Assembly: GCA_027078675.1 (NCBI GenBank)
Contig: JALWWX010000212.1
Span: 1 to 40,906 of the forward strand
Length of the DNA stretch: 40,906 nucleotides
Source: Aquificales bacterium
GTDB lineage: Bacteria > Aquificota > Aquificia > Aquificales > Aquificaceae
Reading direction: 5' to 3'
Shown here: one piece after another, positions 21,601 through 29,454 of the stretch
How the letters are laid out: the number at the start of each line of letters is the position of its first letter
Numbering within the stretch: the stretch's first letter is position 1
The notes under the pieces: generated by a model
Seen by the model: only the letters and a program-made list of their open reading frames with translations
Told to the model about the DNA's origin: nothing
The model's database searches: none
Program-made: the position numbers and the translations under genes

Positions 21601-22005
21601 CTATGTTATCAGATTGAACAGATAAATTAGCCATCCGGTAACTGCAACATATATCCATACAAGTGCTGTCACGGGTGCAATTTTTTTGTGTTTTTCAAAA
21701 TTTTCCTTAAAGGCGTACCTTACAGTAACTACAGCGAGAGGGAAGTTAATTATTGCAAGAATAGTGTGTGACCATAAAATAAAAGAGAACAACCCTTTCA
21801 TCGGACCTTCATAGGGCTTTGTAGGTATTATCATGGTTCTTATAAGGTAAAGCACAACAAATATTATTGCAAATATACATGCGCTTATCATTGCCCTATG
21901 ATGCCATTGTTTTTTCCTGAGGAGAATAAATATGATGCCCGCAATTATAGATAAACCACTTATAGCTATGGTTATTAAACTGAGATATATAAGTATTTCT
22001 TTCAT
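21601..22005 (-). CDS. DUF420 (oxidase-associated) membrane protein
   Basis: Four predicted TM helices; [44 protein letters not shown] typical of DUF420. Confidence 0.8.
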
Positions 22006-22020
22006 CCGCTTAATTATAAC

Positions 22021-22140
22021 TTATTCTCCTGAAAAATTCCTAAGAACAAATGATACAAGGAAAGTAACGAAAAAAGATATAAGAACAAACAAGACAATAG
22101 CCACAGCTATTGCTATGGCAACATCATCCCGCTTTTTCAT
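22021..22140 (-). CDS. 39-aa single-TM protein, subunit IIa-like candidate
   Basis: Not in supplied track. RC translation MKKRDDVAIAIAVAIVLFVLISFFVTFLVSFVLRNFSGE*; overlaps the 3' end of the HCO-like gene by 17 nt. Confidence 0.65.
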   Translation of the reverse strand: MKKRDDVAIAIAVAIVLFVLISFFVTFLVSFVLRNFSGE

Positions 22141-23422
22141 TTACACCTACCCTCTCCCGCGATATAAGAGAACTCAGCATATAAACAACAAACATTATAC
22201 CTCCCAAAACAGCCAGTATAGTACCTATACCCATCATGGTCAATGATATTATAACGGACGGATCATCTGTAAAATCAACACCGTATGTCTTACGCGGAGC
22301 ACCGCCCTTACCCGCCCAGTAAAGGCTCAGTACAAAAAGTATCATGCCTATACCATAAAAATAGGGCTGTATTTTAGGAATTTTACCTATAACCCTTCTA
22401 TAACCGTATTCCTTTAAAAGGTTATAGGATATAGCCATGAGGGCTATGGTTATACTTGTAACCGCTCCGTGATAGTGGGCGGGTACTCTAAGATCATTGC
22501 TAAGACCTAAGTATGCTATCAGAATGCCAAGGTAATAAAGGGAGAAGGAAAAAATAAGTGAAACGGAAAAGACACTAAGGGAAGGTTTGAAGTTTATGAG
22601 TACACTCAGGGTATGTATAAATATAGGAACACCCAAACCTATAGCGTAAGATATCTCCGCCCATAGTTTTGCATCTTTACTTATGGGATCTTCAAAAACA
22701 AAGAGCAGAGAGAAAGTTATTAACGAAAAAATGATAAATACAGTATTTATGTATCTCAAAACATTTAACTCCACCCTTTTACCTTCCAATGAGATCAAAT
22801 AATACCAAGCCATAAGGAGTAGAGAACCGTTCAAAAATTGTTGGATATGCCCAGGGATCCAGAAAAACCTTTCAAAATAAAGAAGGGGTTCCGAAGGAGA
22901 ACCTGCCTTAAAGAAGGAGAAAATGTAAGAAACTATCATAAAAAGGGATATAAAAATACCGGCGGATGCGCAGTTAATTAGTGGGTCAGAACTAAATACA
23001 CCCCTTAAAGCCTTAGATAAATAAAGAAAAGTTTTAAATGAGAAGGAAAGAATAAATAACCCTATACCCAAGAAAAATAAAGGATGAACTATAACGGGAA
23101 CATAATTGTTGGGAATTGGTTCACCCAAGGCAAAAAAGCAAGACAGAGCTATAAAAACATATCCGAGATATGCCATAAAAAGGAGTACTTTTTCGTATAT
23201 AACTTCTCCGAAAAGTTTTGTCCACAACAGAAGAGTAAAAGACATAAGCCACATAACTATGGCAAGATCTACATGACCCACAAGGGCGTGATAAAAATAA
23301 TCCTCGGGGAATATACTGTGACCAAAAGGGGTTCTGCTCATAGCAACAAGAAAGGCGAAAAATCCCCCTGTCCCTATGGAAATTATGGAAAGGATAAACC
23401 AGTATCTTTCCATACCGCTCAT
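22124..23422 (-). CDS. Divergent heme-copper oxidase subunit I-like protein
   Basis: Retains candidate heme ligands ALVGH(50)VDLAIVMW and PAH(316)YH(318)GAVTS, plus GH(192)IQQF; helix VII HH not found. Start ATG overlaps the ctaB stop (ATGA). Confidence 0.75.
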   Translation of the reverse strand: MSGMERYWFILSIISIGTGGFFAFLVAMSRTPFGHSIFPEDYFYHALVGHVDLAIVMWLMSFTLLLWTKLFGEVIYEKVLLFMAYLGYVFIALSCFFALGEPIPNNYVPVIVHPLFFLGIGLFILSFSFKTFLYLSKALRGVFSSDPLINCASAGIFISLFMIVSYIFSFFKAGSPSEPLLYFERFFWIPGHIQQFLNGSLLLMAWYYLISLEGKRVELNVLRYINTVFIIFSLITFSLLFVFEDPISKDAKLWAEISYAIGLGVPIFIHTLSVLINFKPSLSVFSVSLIFSFSLYYLGILIAYLGLSNDLRVPAHYHGAVTSITIALMAISYNLLKEYGYRRVIGKIPKIQPYFYGIGMILFVLSLYWAGKGGAPRKTYGVDFTDDPSVIISLTMMGIGTILAVLGGIMFVVYMLSSLISRERVGVNEKAG

Positions 23423-24303
23423 TGCCTTACCATATCAATGACCATCAAGGTAAATATGCTTGCAAGGTAAAAGATGGAGTAGAAAAACAGCTTCATATCC
23501 ACCTCTTTTCTTGAAAGGACAAATTTTATTGTCATCGCTATATAGATGATGTTCAAAACTATGGCACCGTATAAGTAAATGGTGCCAGCCATATTCATAT
23601 AATAGGGAAGGAGTGTTACGGGAAGCAGGAGCAGTGTATAAAACAAAGTTCTAAGCTTCGTTTCCCTAACTCCCCTTGATACGGGAAGGGTGGCAACACC
23701 CGCCCTTCTGTAATCTTCCTTATACTTAAGGGCAAGCACCCAAAAGTGGGGCGGTTGCCATATAAACATTATCAAAAAGAGGACGAGTGCCTCAAGGTTT
23801 ATATTACCGGATACAGCTGTGTATCCTATAACAGGGGGTAATGCTCCCGTTATACCGCCTATCTCAGTTGCGTACTCTGTTCTGCGCTTTGTAACGATGG
23901 TATAGGGTACAACATATACAAAGGCAGCGAGGAAGGCAAGAAAAGCGGATATAAGGTTTACATAGTAAGATAATATGAAAAGAGATAATAAAATAAACGA
24001 AAAACCCATAAACAAAGCAATCCAAGGATTTACCGTTCCCTGGGCAGTAGGTCTTGACATCGTCCTTTCCATCAACCTATCTATATCCCTATCAATGAAG
24101 TTATTTAAAACAGCAGAACCTGCTGCAGCAAAACCAGTACCTATAAGGGTCCAGAAAACCAAAAAGGGATCTGGCAATCCCCTGTTGGCAAGGTATATAC
24201 CTGTCAAGGTAGTAACGAGGACAAGGGCTACAATACCAGGCTTTGTTAAAACAACATGATCCTTTAGCGTGTTCTTATAATACGCCACTTTATGAAGGCT
24301 CAT
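23419..24303 (-). CDS. ctaB: Protoheme IX farnesyltransferase (heme O synthase)
   Basis: NNFIDRDIDRLMERTMSRPTAQG, YKEDYRRAGVATLPVSRG; UbiA-type prenyltransferase. Confidence 0.95.
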   Translation of the reverse strand: MSLHKVAYYKNTLKDHVVLTKPGIVALVLVTTLTGIYLANRGLPDPFLVFWTLIGTGFAAAGSAVLNNFIDRDIDRLMERTMSRPTAQGTVNPWIALFMGFSFILLSLFILSYYVNLISAFLAFLAAFVYVVPYTIVTKRRTEYATEIGGITGALPPVIGYTAVSGNINLEALVLFLIMFIWQPPHFWVLALKYKEDYRRAGVATLPVSRGVRETKLRTLFYTLLLLPVTLLPYYMNMAGTIYLYGAIVLNIIYIAMTIKFVLSRKEVDMKLFFYSIFYLASIFTLMVIDMVRQ

Positions 24304-25166
24304 GCCCTCACTTCCCCTTGAACCCCCTTAGGGAATAGATAGGGTGCAGTTATGAAGGAGACCCATGCCAAAAGGAAGAATCCCAAAAGTATGTGGTGAA
24401 ACACTATCGGAAGGAATAAACCAGAGAATACACTCATTATCCCGAACAGCATCTGTGCAACTACGAGGGTAAAGGTTATCCCCGTTCGTGGGTTCAATTC
24501 CTTAAACATTAAGTAACCGGTAAAGATAACCAAAGCATAAGCTACCACCCTATGAAGGAAGTGGATAAACACATTGAAATTATCAAAGGGAGGTATTATA
24601 TGACCTAAACATGTGGGCCAATCGGGACATGCAAGCCCCGACTGTGTATACCTTACTATTATCCCTATTATTATTTGCATGTAAACAAAAATGAAAAGGG
24701 GAACAGCATAAGGTACATGCATAGGTACGCCTTTCTCGTGAGCTATAAGGGATAAAGTAAAGGATATGAAAGCAAGTATAATTGTGGACACTATTATATG
24801 AGAAGAGGTAAGAACCATATGTTCAACTTCGCTAAGCAGAGGTGCCTCCCTTAATACCACAACTCCACCAAGGATAACTTCTACTATAAGCATTATAAGG
24901 GCTACGCTTATTGTAAATCGCGGTAGCCCCCTGTAATTTCTCCAGACGCTTATAAAGGACAAAAGTATAAATAAACCCGCATTAGCCCCTAACAGTCTAT
25001 GACCCCACTCTATCCATGCATCCATCTTTGGAGGAGGGTTAAAGGTACCGTAACATAAAGGCCAATCAGGACATCCAAGTCCAGAACCGGTAGATGTAAC
25101 TATACCGCCGAAAACCATCAGGACATAGGTTGAGATAAGAGCTATGAAAAGTATTATCTTTGTCAT
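24300..25166 (-). CDS. ctaA: Heme A synthase
   Basis: GGIVTSTGSGLGCPDWPLCYG...EWGHRLLGA...YTQSGLACPDWPTCLG...HFLHRVVA. Start set at MTKIIL 25166 (ATGA overlap with upstream mini-ORF). Confidence 0.93.
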   Translation of the reverse strand: MTKIILFIALISTYVLMVFGGIVTSTGSGLGCPDWPLCYGTFNPPPKMDAWIEWGHRLLGANAGLFILLSFISVWRNYRGLPRFTISVALIMLIVEVILGGVVVLREAPLLSEVEHMVLTSSHIIVSTIILAFISFTLSLIAHEKGVPMHVPYAVPLFIFVYMQIIIGIIVRYTQSGLACPDWPTCLGHIIPPFDNFNVFIHFLHRVVAYALVIFTGYLMFKELNPRTGITFTLVVAQMLFGIMSVFSGLFLPIVFHHILLGFFLLAWVSFITAPYLFPKGVQGEVRA

Positions 25167-25291
25167 AACATTCCTCTCCTCTTCAGATAGGTGGTTATTA
25201 TCCATAGTATATAAGAAAGGAATACAAACATCAACAGGGAGTAACCTATCAGTTTTGTGATCCTATCAGCTTTCTGTTTATCTTTGTCCAT
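25163..25291 (-). CDS. 42-aa single-TM mini-protein upstream of ctaA
   Basis: Not in supplied track. MDKDKQKADRITKLIGYSLLMFVFLSYILWIITTYLKRRGML*; GGGGGTGAT SD-like sequence upstream; stop overlaps the ctaA start. Confidence 0.65.
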   Translation of the reverse strand: MDKDKQKADRITKLIGYSLLMFVFLSYILWIITTYLKRRGML

Positions 25292-25363: not shown

Positions 25364-26974
25364 TTAAGCCTTCTTGTAGTTGTAGGGGTGCCATTCCTCA
25401 TCCACTTCGGGTAGCTTGTCAAAGTTATGGGGTGCAGGTGGTGAAGCAGTCCACCACTCCAGAGAAGGTGAACCCCAAGGATTAGCATCAGCCTTTTCAC
25501 CTTTCACCATACCCAGGATGAGGTTTATGAAGGTTATAAGTACTCCAAGAGCGAATATAAACGCACCAACTGTCATCCAGTGATGGGCAGTTATAAGCTC
25601 GGGAATGGGGGGATAATCAACATATCTTCTGGGCATACCATGAAGACCAGCTATAAGTTGCATTCCAAATATAAGCATAGCACCCATAAACATTACGAAG
25701 AAGCCCAGGCTTCCAAGTCCATCTGAGTAGGCAAGTCTTCCTGTGAATTTGGGGAACCAGTAGTAAAGACCTGCAAATATACCAAAGGTTATTATCATTG
25801 CAAGAACAAAGTGGAAGTGACCTGCAATCCAGTAGGAGTCAGAAAGACCGTAATCTATACCAAGCATACCGTTAGGTATTCCTGTCAAACCTCCTGGAAG
25901 AATCATAAATATGGTTCCAAGGGCAAACCATGTTGCTGTATTGAACTTCAAAGCACCCTTAAAGAGGGTTAAGGTTGATGCAAGAACTATAATTCCGACG
26001 GGTACAGTTATCATCATTGTGGTTATGGACTGGATTATCTTCAACCAATCAGCGGTAGCGGTAACGAACATATGGTGTGTCCATACTATGAATCCCAATA
26101 CAACAACTCCCCACTGAGCTATTACATACGCTTTATATCCGAAGAACCTGTTTTTAGCCATTGCGGATATGACTTCACCGGCAATAGCAACCGGTGGTAG
26201 CAACATTACATAAACTGCTGGGTGTGAGTAGAACCAGAATACGTGCTGATAAAGAAGCGGATCACCACCCCTTGCGGGATCAAAGAAGGCTGTACCAAGA
26301 TACTTGTCAAAAAGGTCCATTGTAACTGCGCCCGCAAGTGAAGGAACACCAAGGATCTGTATGACGTTGGCGGTTATTATTGAATGAACAAATATAGGCA
26401 ACTTCCAATATGACAAGCCCTTGGCCCTCATTCTAATAACGGTTGTGAGGAAGTTAACAGCACCTGCTATGGAAGATACTCCAAGAAGATGAATTATGAA
26501 AACATAAAGGGCAAGATTTCCTGCATCGTTGTTGAGGGCATAGGGAGGATATCCCGTCCACATCATCTTTATGTGGTTACCGGGTATTAGGGTTATAAGA
26601 ACAAGAACACTTGCACCGAAGTATGCCCACCAGCTAAGGGCATTTAATCTGGGGAAGGCAACATCCCTTGCACCTATCATCAAGGGGAGCAAGAAGTTAC
26701 CGAATCCTCCAGTGGGTGCACCTATAGCCCACCATAGGAGCATTATTGCACCGTGTCCAGTAAGGAGATAGTTGTAAAACTCCGGACTCCAGAATTGCAG
26801 ACCCGGATTTGTCAACTCAAGCCTCATTCCAAGGGCAAAGAGTCCACCCACCACAAAAAACAGGATGCTGGTAACGAGATATAAAATGCCGATCTTTTTA
26901 TGATCCGTCGTAAATATCCACTCTTTCAGGGAGGCTCCGAAATATGGCACCCCTGTAGGGATAGCTTCCCTCAT
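25364..26974 (-). CDS. ctaD: Cytochrome c oxidase subunit I (A2-type, YS motif)
   Basis: YQHVFWFYSHPAVYVMLLPP, WTHHMFV, IAGHFHFVLAMI; CuB His and Tyr all present. Confidence 0.96.
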   Translation of the reverse strand: MREAIPTGVPYFGASLKEWIFTTDHKKIGILYLVTSILFFVVGGLFALGMRLELTNPGLQFWSPEFYNYLLTGHGAIMLLWWAIGAPTGGFGNFLLPLMIGARDVAFPRLNALSWWAYFGASVLVLITLIPGNHIKMMWTGYPPYALNNDAGNLALYVFIIHLLGVSSIAGAVNFLTTVIRMRAKGLSYWKLPIFVHSIITANVIQILGVPSLAGAVTMDLFDKYLGTAFFDPARGGDPLLYQHVFWFYSHPAVYVMLLPPVAIAGEVISAMAKNRFFGYKAYVIAQWGVVVLGFIVWTHHMFVTATADWLKIIQSITTMMITVPVGIIVLASTLTLFKGALKFNTATWFALGTIFMILPGGLTGIPNGMLGIDYGLSDSYWIAGHFHFVLAMIITFGIFAGLYYWFPKFTGRLAYSDGLGSLGFFVMFMGAMLIFGMQLIAGLHGMPRRYVDYPPIPELITAHHWMTVGAFIFALGVLITFINLILGMVKGEKADANPWGSPSLEWWTASPPAPHNFDKLPEVDEEWHPYNYKKA

Positions 26975-26988
26975 GATACTACACCTCC

Positions 26989-27846
26989 TTAATTATTTAC
27001 CTTAGCTAATTCTATATTACCACCCTTAGCTTGCTTTGTATACCACTTCTTAGTTGAATACTTGTTTATAAGATCAGCATCAGCAATTTGACCGTTATAC
27101 CACTGTTCAAATTCTTCCTTGGGAACTACCCATATCTTGGCCAGCATATAGGCATGGTTGGTACCACAATATTCCCTACATGATACGAGATACTCTCCAG
27201 GTGCATCCACTTTAAACCATTGGTAGGTTACTCTTCCGGGATAAAGATCCTGTAGCTTGTTAATAGGTGGCCATAGGTAGAAAGCATGTATAACATCAGT
27301 TGACTTCATAGAAAGCTTTATCGGAACACCAGCAGGTACTATAAAGCCACCCTTAAACTCTTCAAACTTATCAGTTGCAGGGTTATAGAAGGAGAAAAGG
27401 GTTTTACCGTTAGGATATTTAAACTGCCACATCCACATTGAACCAGTAACTTCTATCTCCATAGCATTTTCAGGTATTTTCTTTTGATATTCAAACACAG
27501 ATTCAGAAACGAAATCCAGGAATATGTCTCCCGCAAACACTGCAACTCCCCAAGCTATGAGAAGACCGTTTTCTATAGGTCCCCACGGTTTAGAAGCATG
27601 CTCACCTTCTTCCCTTTCACCCTTCTTATACTGGTAAATCAGTGTGAATACAACAAAAGGTATAGCTATTACAAAGAAGTATAGCATTACCACATAAAAG
27701 ACATTCTTGAATCCCCAATACCATTGAAGACCCGGTTCCGCACCAGTAGCTTTTGCGACTTCATAACCCTCAAGTATGGGTTGATGCCCTACTATCATGA
27801 CCAGCGTAGTAACCGCAAAATAAACTATTACCAATATGGCTACCAT
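26989..27846 (-). CDS. ctaC: Cytochrome c oxidase subunit II
   Basis: CuA motif CREYCGTNHAYM; two N-terminal TM helices; no fused cytochrome c. Confidence 0.95.
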   Translation of the reverse strand: MVAILVIVYFAVTTLVMIVGHQPILEGYEVAKATGAEPGLQWYWGFKNVFYVVMLYFFVIAIPFVVFTLIYQYKKGEREEGEHASKPWGPIENGLLIAWGVAVFAGDIFLDFVSESVFEYQKKIPENAMEIEVTGSMWMWQFKYPNGKTLFSFYNPATDKFEEFKGGFIVPAGVPIKLSMKSTDVIHAFYLWPPINKLQDLYPGRVTYQWFKVDAPGEYLVSCREYCGTNHAYMLAKIWVVPKEEFEQWYNGQIADADLINKYSTKKWYTKQAKGGNIELAKVNN

Positions 27847-27849
27847 TGT

Positions 27850-28650
27850 TCACACCTCCTTCCTTCCATAAAGTTTACCATAAAAAACGCTAAGCAATAA
27901 AGTTGAACCCAAAAGTATGAAGCCAACACCTCCCAATATCATAACAGGATTTAACATATAAGATCCCTTCTTGGCGTTGTAGCTGAAACATGCGAGATAT
28001 ACAAGATCTACAACCTCATTTATTTTAAGTTCTCCTGTATTTGCCTCCGCAAGGGCAATTCTCACCGCCTTAGGATCGGGCTTAACCCCATATATATACC
28101 TCACTATCCTTTTGTCGGGAGATATGAATATTAGCACATTGGGATGTACAAAAGCCCTGTCCTTAACAGAATAGAAAAATCTAAATCCAGTGGCTTCGGT
28201 GATGCGTCTTATATCCTGTTTTGAAAGCAATCCGAACACCCAATTATCAGGTATATATTTCAGTTTCTCCTTAAAGGATTTCATTGTTTCCAAAGTATCC
28301 TTTTCGTCAAAGGAAAGGGTTATAAAAGTGAAGTCCCTATCTTTGATAGACTCCAAGGCTTTGGATATATTGCCAGCCAGAACAGGGCAAGAGGCATCGC
28401 ATGTGTAGTATGCAAATACTATAATGGCGGGTTCCTCACCAATTATCTCCCAGAGCTTTTTAGTTTGCCCATTTTCAAGAACAACATCAACATTGGGAAT
28501 TTCCCTTCCCAAATGTTCACCCTCATTTATACGAAGGATAGAAACATCAAAACTGCTATCTTCATCATAGGGAACACCAAGAGGGGTGTTAACCGACCAA
28601 CCAAGGGATAAAACAGTAAGCAGAAGAAGAAACACCCCTCTCATGGCCAA
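27850..28650 (-). CDS. SCO1/SenC copper chaperone
   Basis: YYTCDASCPVLAGN (CxxxC), FVHPNVLIFISPDKRIVRYIYG; C-terminal TM. Confidence 0.9.
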   Translation of the reverse strand: MAMRGVFLLLLTVLSLGWSVNTPLGVPYDEDSSFDVSILRINEGEHLGREIPNVDVVLENGQTKKLWEIIGEEPAIIVFAYYTCDASCPVLAGNISKALESIKDRDFTFITLSFDEKDTLETMKSFKEKLKYIPDNWVFGLLSKQDIRRITEATGFRFFYSVKDRAFVHPNVLIFISPDKRIVRYIYGVKPDPKAVRIALAEANTGELKINEVVDLVYLACFSYNAKKGSYMLNPVMILGGVGFILLGSTLLLSVFYGKLYGRKEV

Positions 28651-28662
28651 ACCCTTAAATTA

Positions 28663-29454
28663 TTAATGTCCTCCTGACAACGCAGGTATAGATCCTACAA
28701 AGTATGCATTTGTAGCAACGAACATCCATACAACGTCAACGAAATGCCAGTAAAATCCAGTTGCTACAACTGCAGTTGTTTTGGTTTCGTCAATCTTACC
28801 GCTCAAACCTATCCAGAGAAGATAAAGCATAGCAATCAATCCTACAAGAACGTGTGATGTGTGAAAACCTGTAAGCATATAAAATGCGGTACCGTACATA
28901 TTAGATGATAGGGTAAAACCGGACTCCCAAAGATGTATCCATTCCATAACGTGCAAGATTACGAACAATGCACCCAATATTATTGTGATGAGAAGCCATT
29001 TGTTATAGGCGCCCACATTTCCATGTTCTATAGCCCTTTCCGCTAAGACTATAGCTCCACTTGATGCCCAAAGTATCAGGGTCAGTATAACTGGCATCAG
29101 CAGATTCATCTCTTGAGGCACCCAATTTGCCCATTCATGAGAGTTAAATACCCATGCCCTCCAAAATGCTGCAAACATTGTTCCGAATACTATTACCTCG
29201 GAAGCAACGAAGAAAACTATGGCTATCTTTCCATGCTTCTCATCATGCCCCGTTGTGAAGAATTCATTTACCCAACCTGCAAGTCCTCCGAGTAAGCAAA
29301 CAACAGTTAAACCTGCAAAGATAACCGCTAAAAAGGGCATCTGCCATTGAAAAAAGGCGGTAAAAGCTAAAACAGCAAACAATGCACCAAGCCCTACTCC
29401 AACGGGCCACACACTAACTTCATGGTGACCGTGGTGGACTTCTTCATGCGCCAT
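28663..29454 (-). CDS. ctaE: Cytochrome c oxidase subunit III
   Basis: KHGKIAIVFFVASEVIVFGTMFAAFW, GFHTSHVLVGLIAML, FYWHFVDVVWMFV. Confidence 0.95.
   Translation of the reverse strand: MAHEEVHHGHHEVSVWPVGVGLGALFAVLAFTAFFQWQMPFLAVIFAGLTVVCLLGGLAGWVNEFFTTGHDEKHGKIAIVFFVASEVIVFGTMFAAFWRAWVFNSHEWANWVPQEMNLLMPVILTLILWASSGAIVLAERAIEHGNVGAYNKWLLITIILGALFVILHVMEWIHLWESGFTLSSNMYGTAFYMLTGFHTSHVLVGLIAMLYLLWIGLSGKIDETKTTAVVATGFYWHFVDVVWMFVATNAYFVGSIPALSGGH

Follow-up and report, generated by a model that had tools for sequence, protein, structure and literature searches.

The window analysed here, the whole of a 40,906-nucleotide stretch of an Aquificales bacterium (Aquificaceae; contig JALWWX010000212.1 of assembly GCA_027078675.1), contains a collinear run of minus-strand genes in the order coxC, sco, coxB, coxA, a 42-aa ORF, ctaA, ctaB, a gene for a protein resembling subunit I of heme-copper oxidases (HCO-like), a 39-aa ORF and a DUF420 gene:

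28663..29454, minus strand: coxC, subunit III
27850..28650, minus strand: Sco-like protein (Pfam SCO1-SenC, 26.2 bits)
26989..27846, minus strand: coxB, subunit II (COX2 domain)
25364..26974, minus strand: coxA, aa3-type subunit I with a complete active site (HHM, SHPAVY)
24300..25205, minus strand: ctaA, heme A synthase (COX15-CtaA)
23419..24303, minus strand: ctaB, heme O synthase (UbiA family), overlapping the start of the HCO-like gene by 4 bp
22124..23422, minus strand: CuB-less HCO subunit-I paralogue, 432 aa, 12 TM helices (Pfam, AlphaFold, Foldseek, tree and ligand columns); H50 and H318, low-spin heme; H316, high-spin heme; H192, lone CuB-type ligand; F196, at the Tyr position; R377-K378, at the positions of the heme-propionate arginine pair
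22021..22140, minus strand: 39-aa protein with one TM helix, its gene sharing 17 bp with the 3′ end of the HCO-like gene
21601..22005, minus strand: DUF420 protein of the CtaM family, 134 aa (Pfam PF04238, E 9e-34), in conserved order

A preliminary description of this DNA had placed both the 432-aa and the 39-aa ORF at these positions, the latter overlapping the 3′ end of the former, with DUF420 following and ctaB/ctaA alongside and no CuA subunit II next to the HCO-like gene, and the gene order agrees with it on each count; the HCO-like gene lies in one run with coxB and coxA. The only other COX1 homologue in this genome is coxA, and no ba3 oxidase was found there. The DUF420 protein is no homologue of the HCO-like protein; CtaM relatives of DUF420 are needed for oxidase assembly in Bacillus and Staphylococcus (PMC9145763). 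The single-TM 42-aa ORF between coxA and ctaA (25163-25291, minus strand) is conserved in a sister species, with a dN/dS of 0.026. Because its stop codon overlaps M14, an ATG within the annotated ctaA, the true start of ctaA probably lies 13 codons further on.

The 432-aa product is firmly identified as an HCO subunit-I homologue and a member of a conserved, unnamed family. It matches the COX1 profile of Pfam (E 8.5e-11; 41.8 bits against a cut-off of 34.8), and its AlphaFold model (pLDDT 90.7, pTM 0.91) has 12 long TM helices, the subunit-I fold of the HCO superfamily; Foldseek returned the subunit I chains of Thermus thermophilus ba3 as top matches among solved structures, with TMq up to 0.77. 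No NCBIfam model was matched, and phmmer yielded no match among PDB sequences. The initial assignment to HCO subunit I is supported by these profile and fold comparisons. Both the HCO-like gene (dN/dS 0.067, versus 0.005 for coxA) and the 39-aa gene (0.033, from few sites) are under purifying selection.

Ligand columns were read from a MAFFT alignment of 69 family members, comprising 50 Aquificaceae sequences and 19 from other phyla, together with eNOR and B-type rows. H50, H192, H316 and H318 align to the low-spin, first CuB, high-spin and low-spin ligands of eNOR and B-type oxidases, respectively, as had been proposed for the window protein, and are 100% conserved among the 50 Aquificaceae sequences; H192, H316, H318 and Q195 are found in 69/69 members, and H50 in all 68 in which the position is present. 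The helix-VII HH pair, present in all eNOR and B-type rows, had been described as missing, and indeed none of the 69 members has His at either column. Two alignments put these columns at slightly different residues of the window protein, with His in neither, and since its residues 193-269 include no His whatsoever, the pair is missing however the sequences are aligned. Of the histidine sextet of the superfamily, then, the three heme ligands and one B-metal ligand are kept, and two B-metal ligands are gone throughout the family. Position 196, occupied by Tyr in oxidases and by Gln in eNOR, is Phe in 62/69 members, as first read in the window protein, and Gln in none. R377 is invariant in the 69 members and the second propionate Arg is replaced by Lys in 68; residue 184 is acidic in all of them, as compared with Arg/Lys in eNOR and B-type enzymes, and residue 194 is His in 76% of Aquificaceae copies, but not in the window protein or in most distant members. 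An hhalign comparison of the family with Aquificaceae coxA was weak (E 0.0025) and was discarded, and the ba3 set in that comparison, contaminated by NirS-type ORFs containing HH, was not used.

The pattern of ligand conservation predicts two intact heme sites and no CuB site; together with the tree and the model, it shows that the family has kept both heme sites and lost the CuB site. With two of the three CuB ligands and the Tyr missing, the protein cannot carry out the normal O2-reducing cycle. Its earlier characterization as a heme-binding HCO relative that does not reduce oxygen is supported by the retained heme ligands and the lost CuB, which make O2 reduction by the HCO mechanism appear unlikely. 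One might guess that H192 coordinates the second heme. A complete CuB site, with three His and a Tyr, was looked for and is not present, and that the gene might encode an ordinary oxidase with overlooked CuB ligands, or be a decaying pseudogene, is barely conceivable: the absence of His from the helix-VII columns and from residues 193-269, the low dN/dS and retention across several phyla all speak against it, and we found no evidence in its favor.

Phylogenetic analysis of 51 subunit-I proteins (LG+C20 PMSF) placed the HCO-like rows in a single clade of their own with support of 100/100, within which members from Aquificaceae and those from elsewhere form one monophyletic group each. Its sister group is the NO reductase eNOR (100/98), itself a single clade (100/98), with B-type oxidases next and A-type coxA distant. 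It should be kept in mind that some rows are long-branched, although the joining of HCO-like proteins with eNOR is not among the joins flagged by the program. We recognized eNORs by their cupredoxin subunit II and by their diagnostic Gln at the position of the active-site Tyr (PMC8756737). In both groups the helix-VI His is followed by Gln at +3 and by Asn at +6 (GHxxQ..N), in agreement with the sister placement, and genes of the two are neighbors in several genomes. Unlike eNOR, with its helix-VII HH, Gln at +4 and CuA subunit II, the HCO-like proteins lack all three, and the window protein, with Phe196, falls outside the eNOR clade. No cupredoxin subunit II was seen next to the ctaB-linked copies in Aquificaceae; coxB in the window belongs with coxA.

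The initial comparison to ba3 holds for the fold, as opposed to the ancestry, since the tree gives eNOR, and not the ba3-type oxidases, as the closest kin. HCO-like and ba3-type (B family) proteins have in common the 12-TM fold and the positions of heme ligands, with about 17-19% identity across the structural alignment; in contrast to the latter, the HCO-like protein has neither the CuB pair nor the cross-link Tyr, by which type A and B oxygen reductases are defined, nor a subunit II of its own. Of 16 eNORs, 6 from Aquificaceae and Thermus have Lys in place of the low-spin heme His of helix X (GHFKG rather than GHFHx; L036:9863-11530, L041:5811-7478, L136:2416-4110, L138:3316-5022, L140:3806-5491 and L143:4864-6549), and these enzymes may carry an unusual His/Lys heme.

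Given that an NO reductase is the sister group, and that HCO-like genes often lie in eNOR/nirS clusters, a copper-free HCO could perform NO chemistry (scavenging or dismutation) or sense NO or O2 at a heme whose distal side is open. A precedent exists in the putative NO dismutases, HCO relatives of the qNOR family with altered B-metal ligands (PMC3413370). Those proteins, however, are reported to lose a single ligand His, changed to Asn, along with a Glu, whereas the HCO-like proteins have lost two of the three His and represent a different branch by name and motif, next to eNOR and away from the NOR rows. In addition, H192 could itself cap the heme, no signalling domain is present, and the strongest linkage of the gene is to ctaB/ctaA rather than to nitrogen genes. 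We therefore regard an NO-related function as very improbable, and neither of two roles initially considered, gas sensor and quinol relay, gained positive evidence here.

The 39-aa ORF is a real conserved gene: in many Aquificaceae loci, the HCO-like gene is overlapped or closely followed by the gene for a 37-42-aa homolog that has a basic N terminus and a single TM helix. Its likeness to subunit IIa of ba3 oxidase, suggested at first, is borne out in design and not in identity. The published IIa signature, P-x1-3-G-T/A (PMC3128077), is absent from the protein, which contains no Pro at all, there is no Pfam match above cut-off, and the gene follows the HCO-like gene instead of lying directly upstream of a B-type subunit II, as does subunit IIa (cbaD).

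Among 136 Aquificota genomes, the HCO-like gene is present in 55, all of them within one family, the Aquificaceae. All 53 genomes with ctaA are among these 55; the other two (G017 and G019) are incomplete (79 and 85%), and apart from them, Aquificota genomes with COX1-family enzymes and without ctaA lack the gene. As HCO-like and ctaA genes are physically linked, this is to be counted as one association and not as 53 independent ones. In G001, which fits Aquifex aeolicus VF5 by its published cox gene coordinates, the HCO-like gene is split by a frameshift into ORFs of 386 and 73 aa (L045:8600-9000); errors in that genome sequence were reported earlier (PMC3128077). SURF1 and Cox11 gave no match over cut-off in the 136 genomes, and Caa3_CtaG was found in three (over cut-off in two). 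In other phyla, a first wide sample yielded seven genomes with full-length relatives, with further ones in two of those phyla (3/40 and about a dozen of 345 genomes); ctaA was not detected in four of the genomes with relatives (G304, G314, G349 and G208), and SURF1 is present along with the HCO-like gene in another, G143. A tblastn search of plasmids returned only ordinary C-terminal matches to ba3/eNOR.

The neighborhood of the main Aquificaceae copy is strongly conserved. In 32/32 loci where ctaB could be seen, it lies no more than 10 bp upstream on the same strand, with a 4-bp overlap in several, and the order ctaA-ctaB-HCO-like is followed in many loci by a ~40-aa ORF and DUF420, a recurrence that provides the neighborhood check on the arrangement first seen in the window. 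In several genera this cluster is far from coxA; in G029, for example, the HCO-like gene is at 654 kb and the aa3 coxA at 868 kb. Six genomes have a second copy, in the order eNOR II-eNOR I-HCO-like-sco, with eNOR I and HCO-like genes overlapping by 15-36 bp. The eNOR loci of G009, G018 and G024 have no adjoining copy, and those genomes retain the ctaB-linked one, indicating that the HCO-like protein is not an obligatory, neighbor-encoded eNOR subunit; an exclusive role as an eNOR subunit was rejected, as the window's genome has no eNOR. At three such Aquificaceae eNOR loci (L136-L138), the order is eNOR-sco-NirS-like protein.

Outside Aquificota, the HCO-like gene is followed by ctaB in 8 loci, by ctaA in one, and by eNOR II/I in four more; three loci have no ctaB, ctaA, eNOR or c-type cytochrome neighbor. 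The opposite order of ctaB suggests that the linkage was formed separately, more than once. One phylum has six loci at which a small c-type cytochrome (CxxCH type, as read by eye in four) is encoded next to the HCO-like gene or its ctaB; none was seen beside the Aquificaceae copies. A 675-706-aa cytochrome b plus 4Fe-4S protein, with an FlpD domain in two of three that were scanned, is encoded near eNOR/HCO-like clusters outside Aquificota (L116:3739-5802, L120:12937-15039, L122:8531-10558, L186:9339-11372 and L192:2984-5104), and is a possible electron donor.

Sco is encoded near eNOR/HCO-like genes in most eNOR-type clusters. Along with the want of Cox11 and near-want of Caa3_CtaG in Aquificota, and with a downstream DUF420 gene whose CtaM relatives were proposed to have a late role, perhaps at CuB (PMC9145763), it would fit a copper-insertion platform that builds the CuB/heme a3 site with Sco and CtaM and is not a heme carrier, with Cu(I) bound by H192 and residue 194. 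The variability of residue 194 described above argues against such a function, as does the fact that the invariant residues are heme rather than copper ligands, and we consider it improbable.

The reading that we favor, tentatively and with somewhat less than even confidence, is that of a CuB-less two-heme HCO paralogue which, as heme-copper enzymes are assembled, holds heme O/A or inserts it. Heme O/A from the neighboring CtaB/CtaA would bind to the His ligands that the protein has kept, the second heme perhaps being capped by the lone H192, and would then be passed to a catalytic subunit I, that of the aa3 oxidase here and of eNOR or ba3 elsewhere; the 39-aa protein and DUF420, of the CtaM type, may act together with the HCO-like protein. 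The latter could thereby fill in for SURF1, missing from the whole phylum. SURF1 and CbaX are heme a insertion factors, and while their fold is unrelated to that of the HCO-like protein, the job, placing heme a in subunit I, is possibly the same. An assembly role is favored because the gene tracks ctaB/ctaA rather than oxidase subunits, lies ahead of a gene of the CtaM family, and is retained by genomes that have no eNOR, including that of the window with aa3 as its sole oxidase, and because its phylum has neither SURF1 nor Cox11 and hardly any Caa3_CtaG. Of the roles initially listed, heme A/O handling or assembly is the best supported, by the ctaA-ctaB linkage, the co-distribution with ctaA, the reversed ctaB linkage in another phylum, and the lack of SURF1/Cox11. 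Heme A by itself proved too narrow: a strict heme A role was rejected on account of the four relatives' genomes without detectable ctaA, in which the heme may be O in some cases. Those genomes, and the SURF1 of G143, count against an assembly role in general.

Linkage to ctaB is expected for any operon with a heme O/A protein, and hence fits a redox enzyme as well as a heme carrier. In the main rival reading, the protein is a functional membrane cytochrome that carries heme O/A of its own, receives electrons from cytochrome c and partners eNOR in some genomes and aa3 in others as an electron-transfer or gas-binding subunit; ctaB would be there to supply its cofactor. For such a protein an adjoining ctaB would be natural, and the retention of all heme ligands and of an R-K propionate pair, the overlap with eNOR I in six Aquificaceae genomes, and the eNOR II/I genes downstream in four distant loci would find an explanation; the c-type cytochrome neighbors in six loci fit electron transfer and speak against assembly. 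Nevertheless, the protein has neither a B-metal site nor a CuA subunit of its own, is kept in eNOR-less genomes such as that of the window, and in Aquificaceae is encoded after ctaA-ctaB and not after oxidase subunits, with no cytochrome c gene alongside. On balance, we find this reading possible but rather unlikely.

If the assembly role is extended to the entire B-metal-less branch, it would constitute a new class of assembly factors, dedicated heme O/A carriers or insertases acting between CtaB/CtaA and catalytic subunits I, which replace SURF1 in Aquificota and serve eNOR in other phyla; we put this forward with distinct reserve, as a conjecture with perhaps a minor share of the probability. 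To the extent that the literature was searched, the family is undescribed: no CuB-less HCO-like family was found there, with the main eNOR paper (PNAS 2024), which may mention it, lying outside the scope of the search. A published HCO classifier threw out sequences without six His (PMC3084760). Members of the family may end up labelled as “cytochrome c oxidase subunit I”, which would inflate oxidase counts in genome surveys. According to reviews, the way in which heme A gets into subunit I is not known, and SURF1 is missing from many bacteria (PMC9145763). A subunit-I look-alike with its heme sites kept, its copper gone and its gene next to ctaB would be an immediate candidate to carry out this missing step, and the family indicates that HCOs can drop the B-metal site and yet stay strictly conserved.
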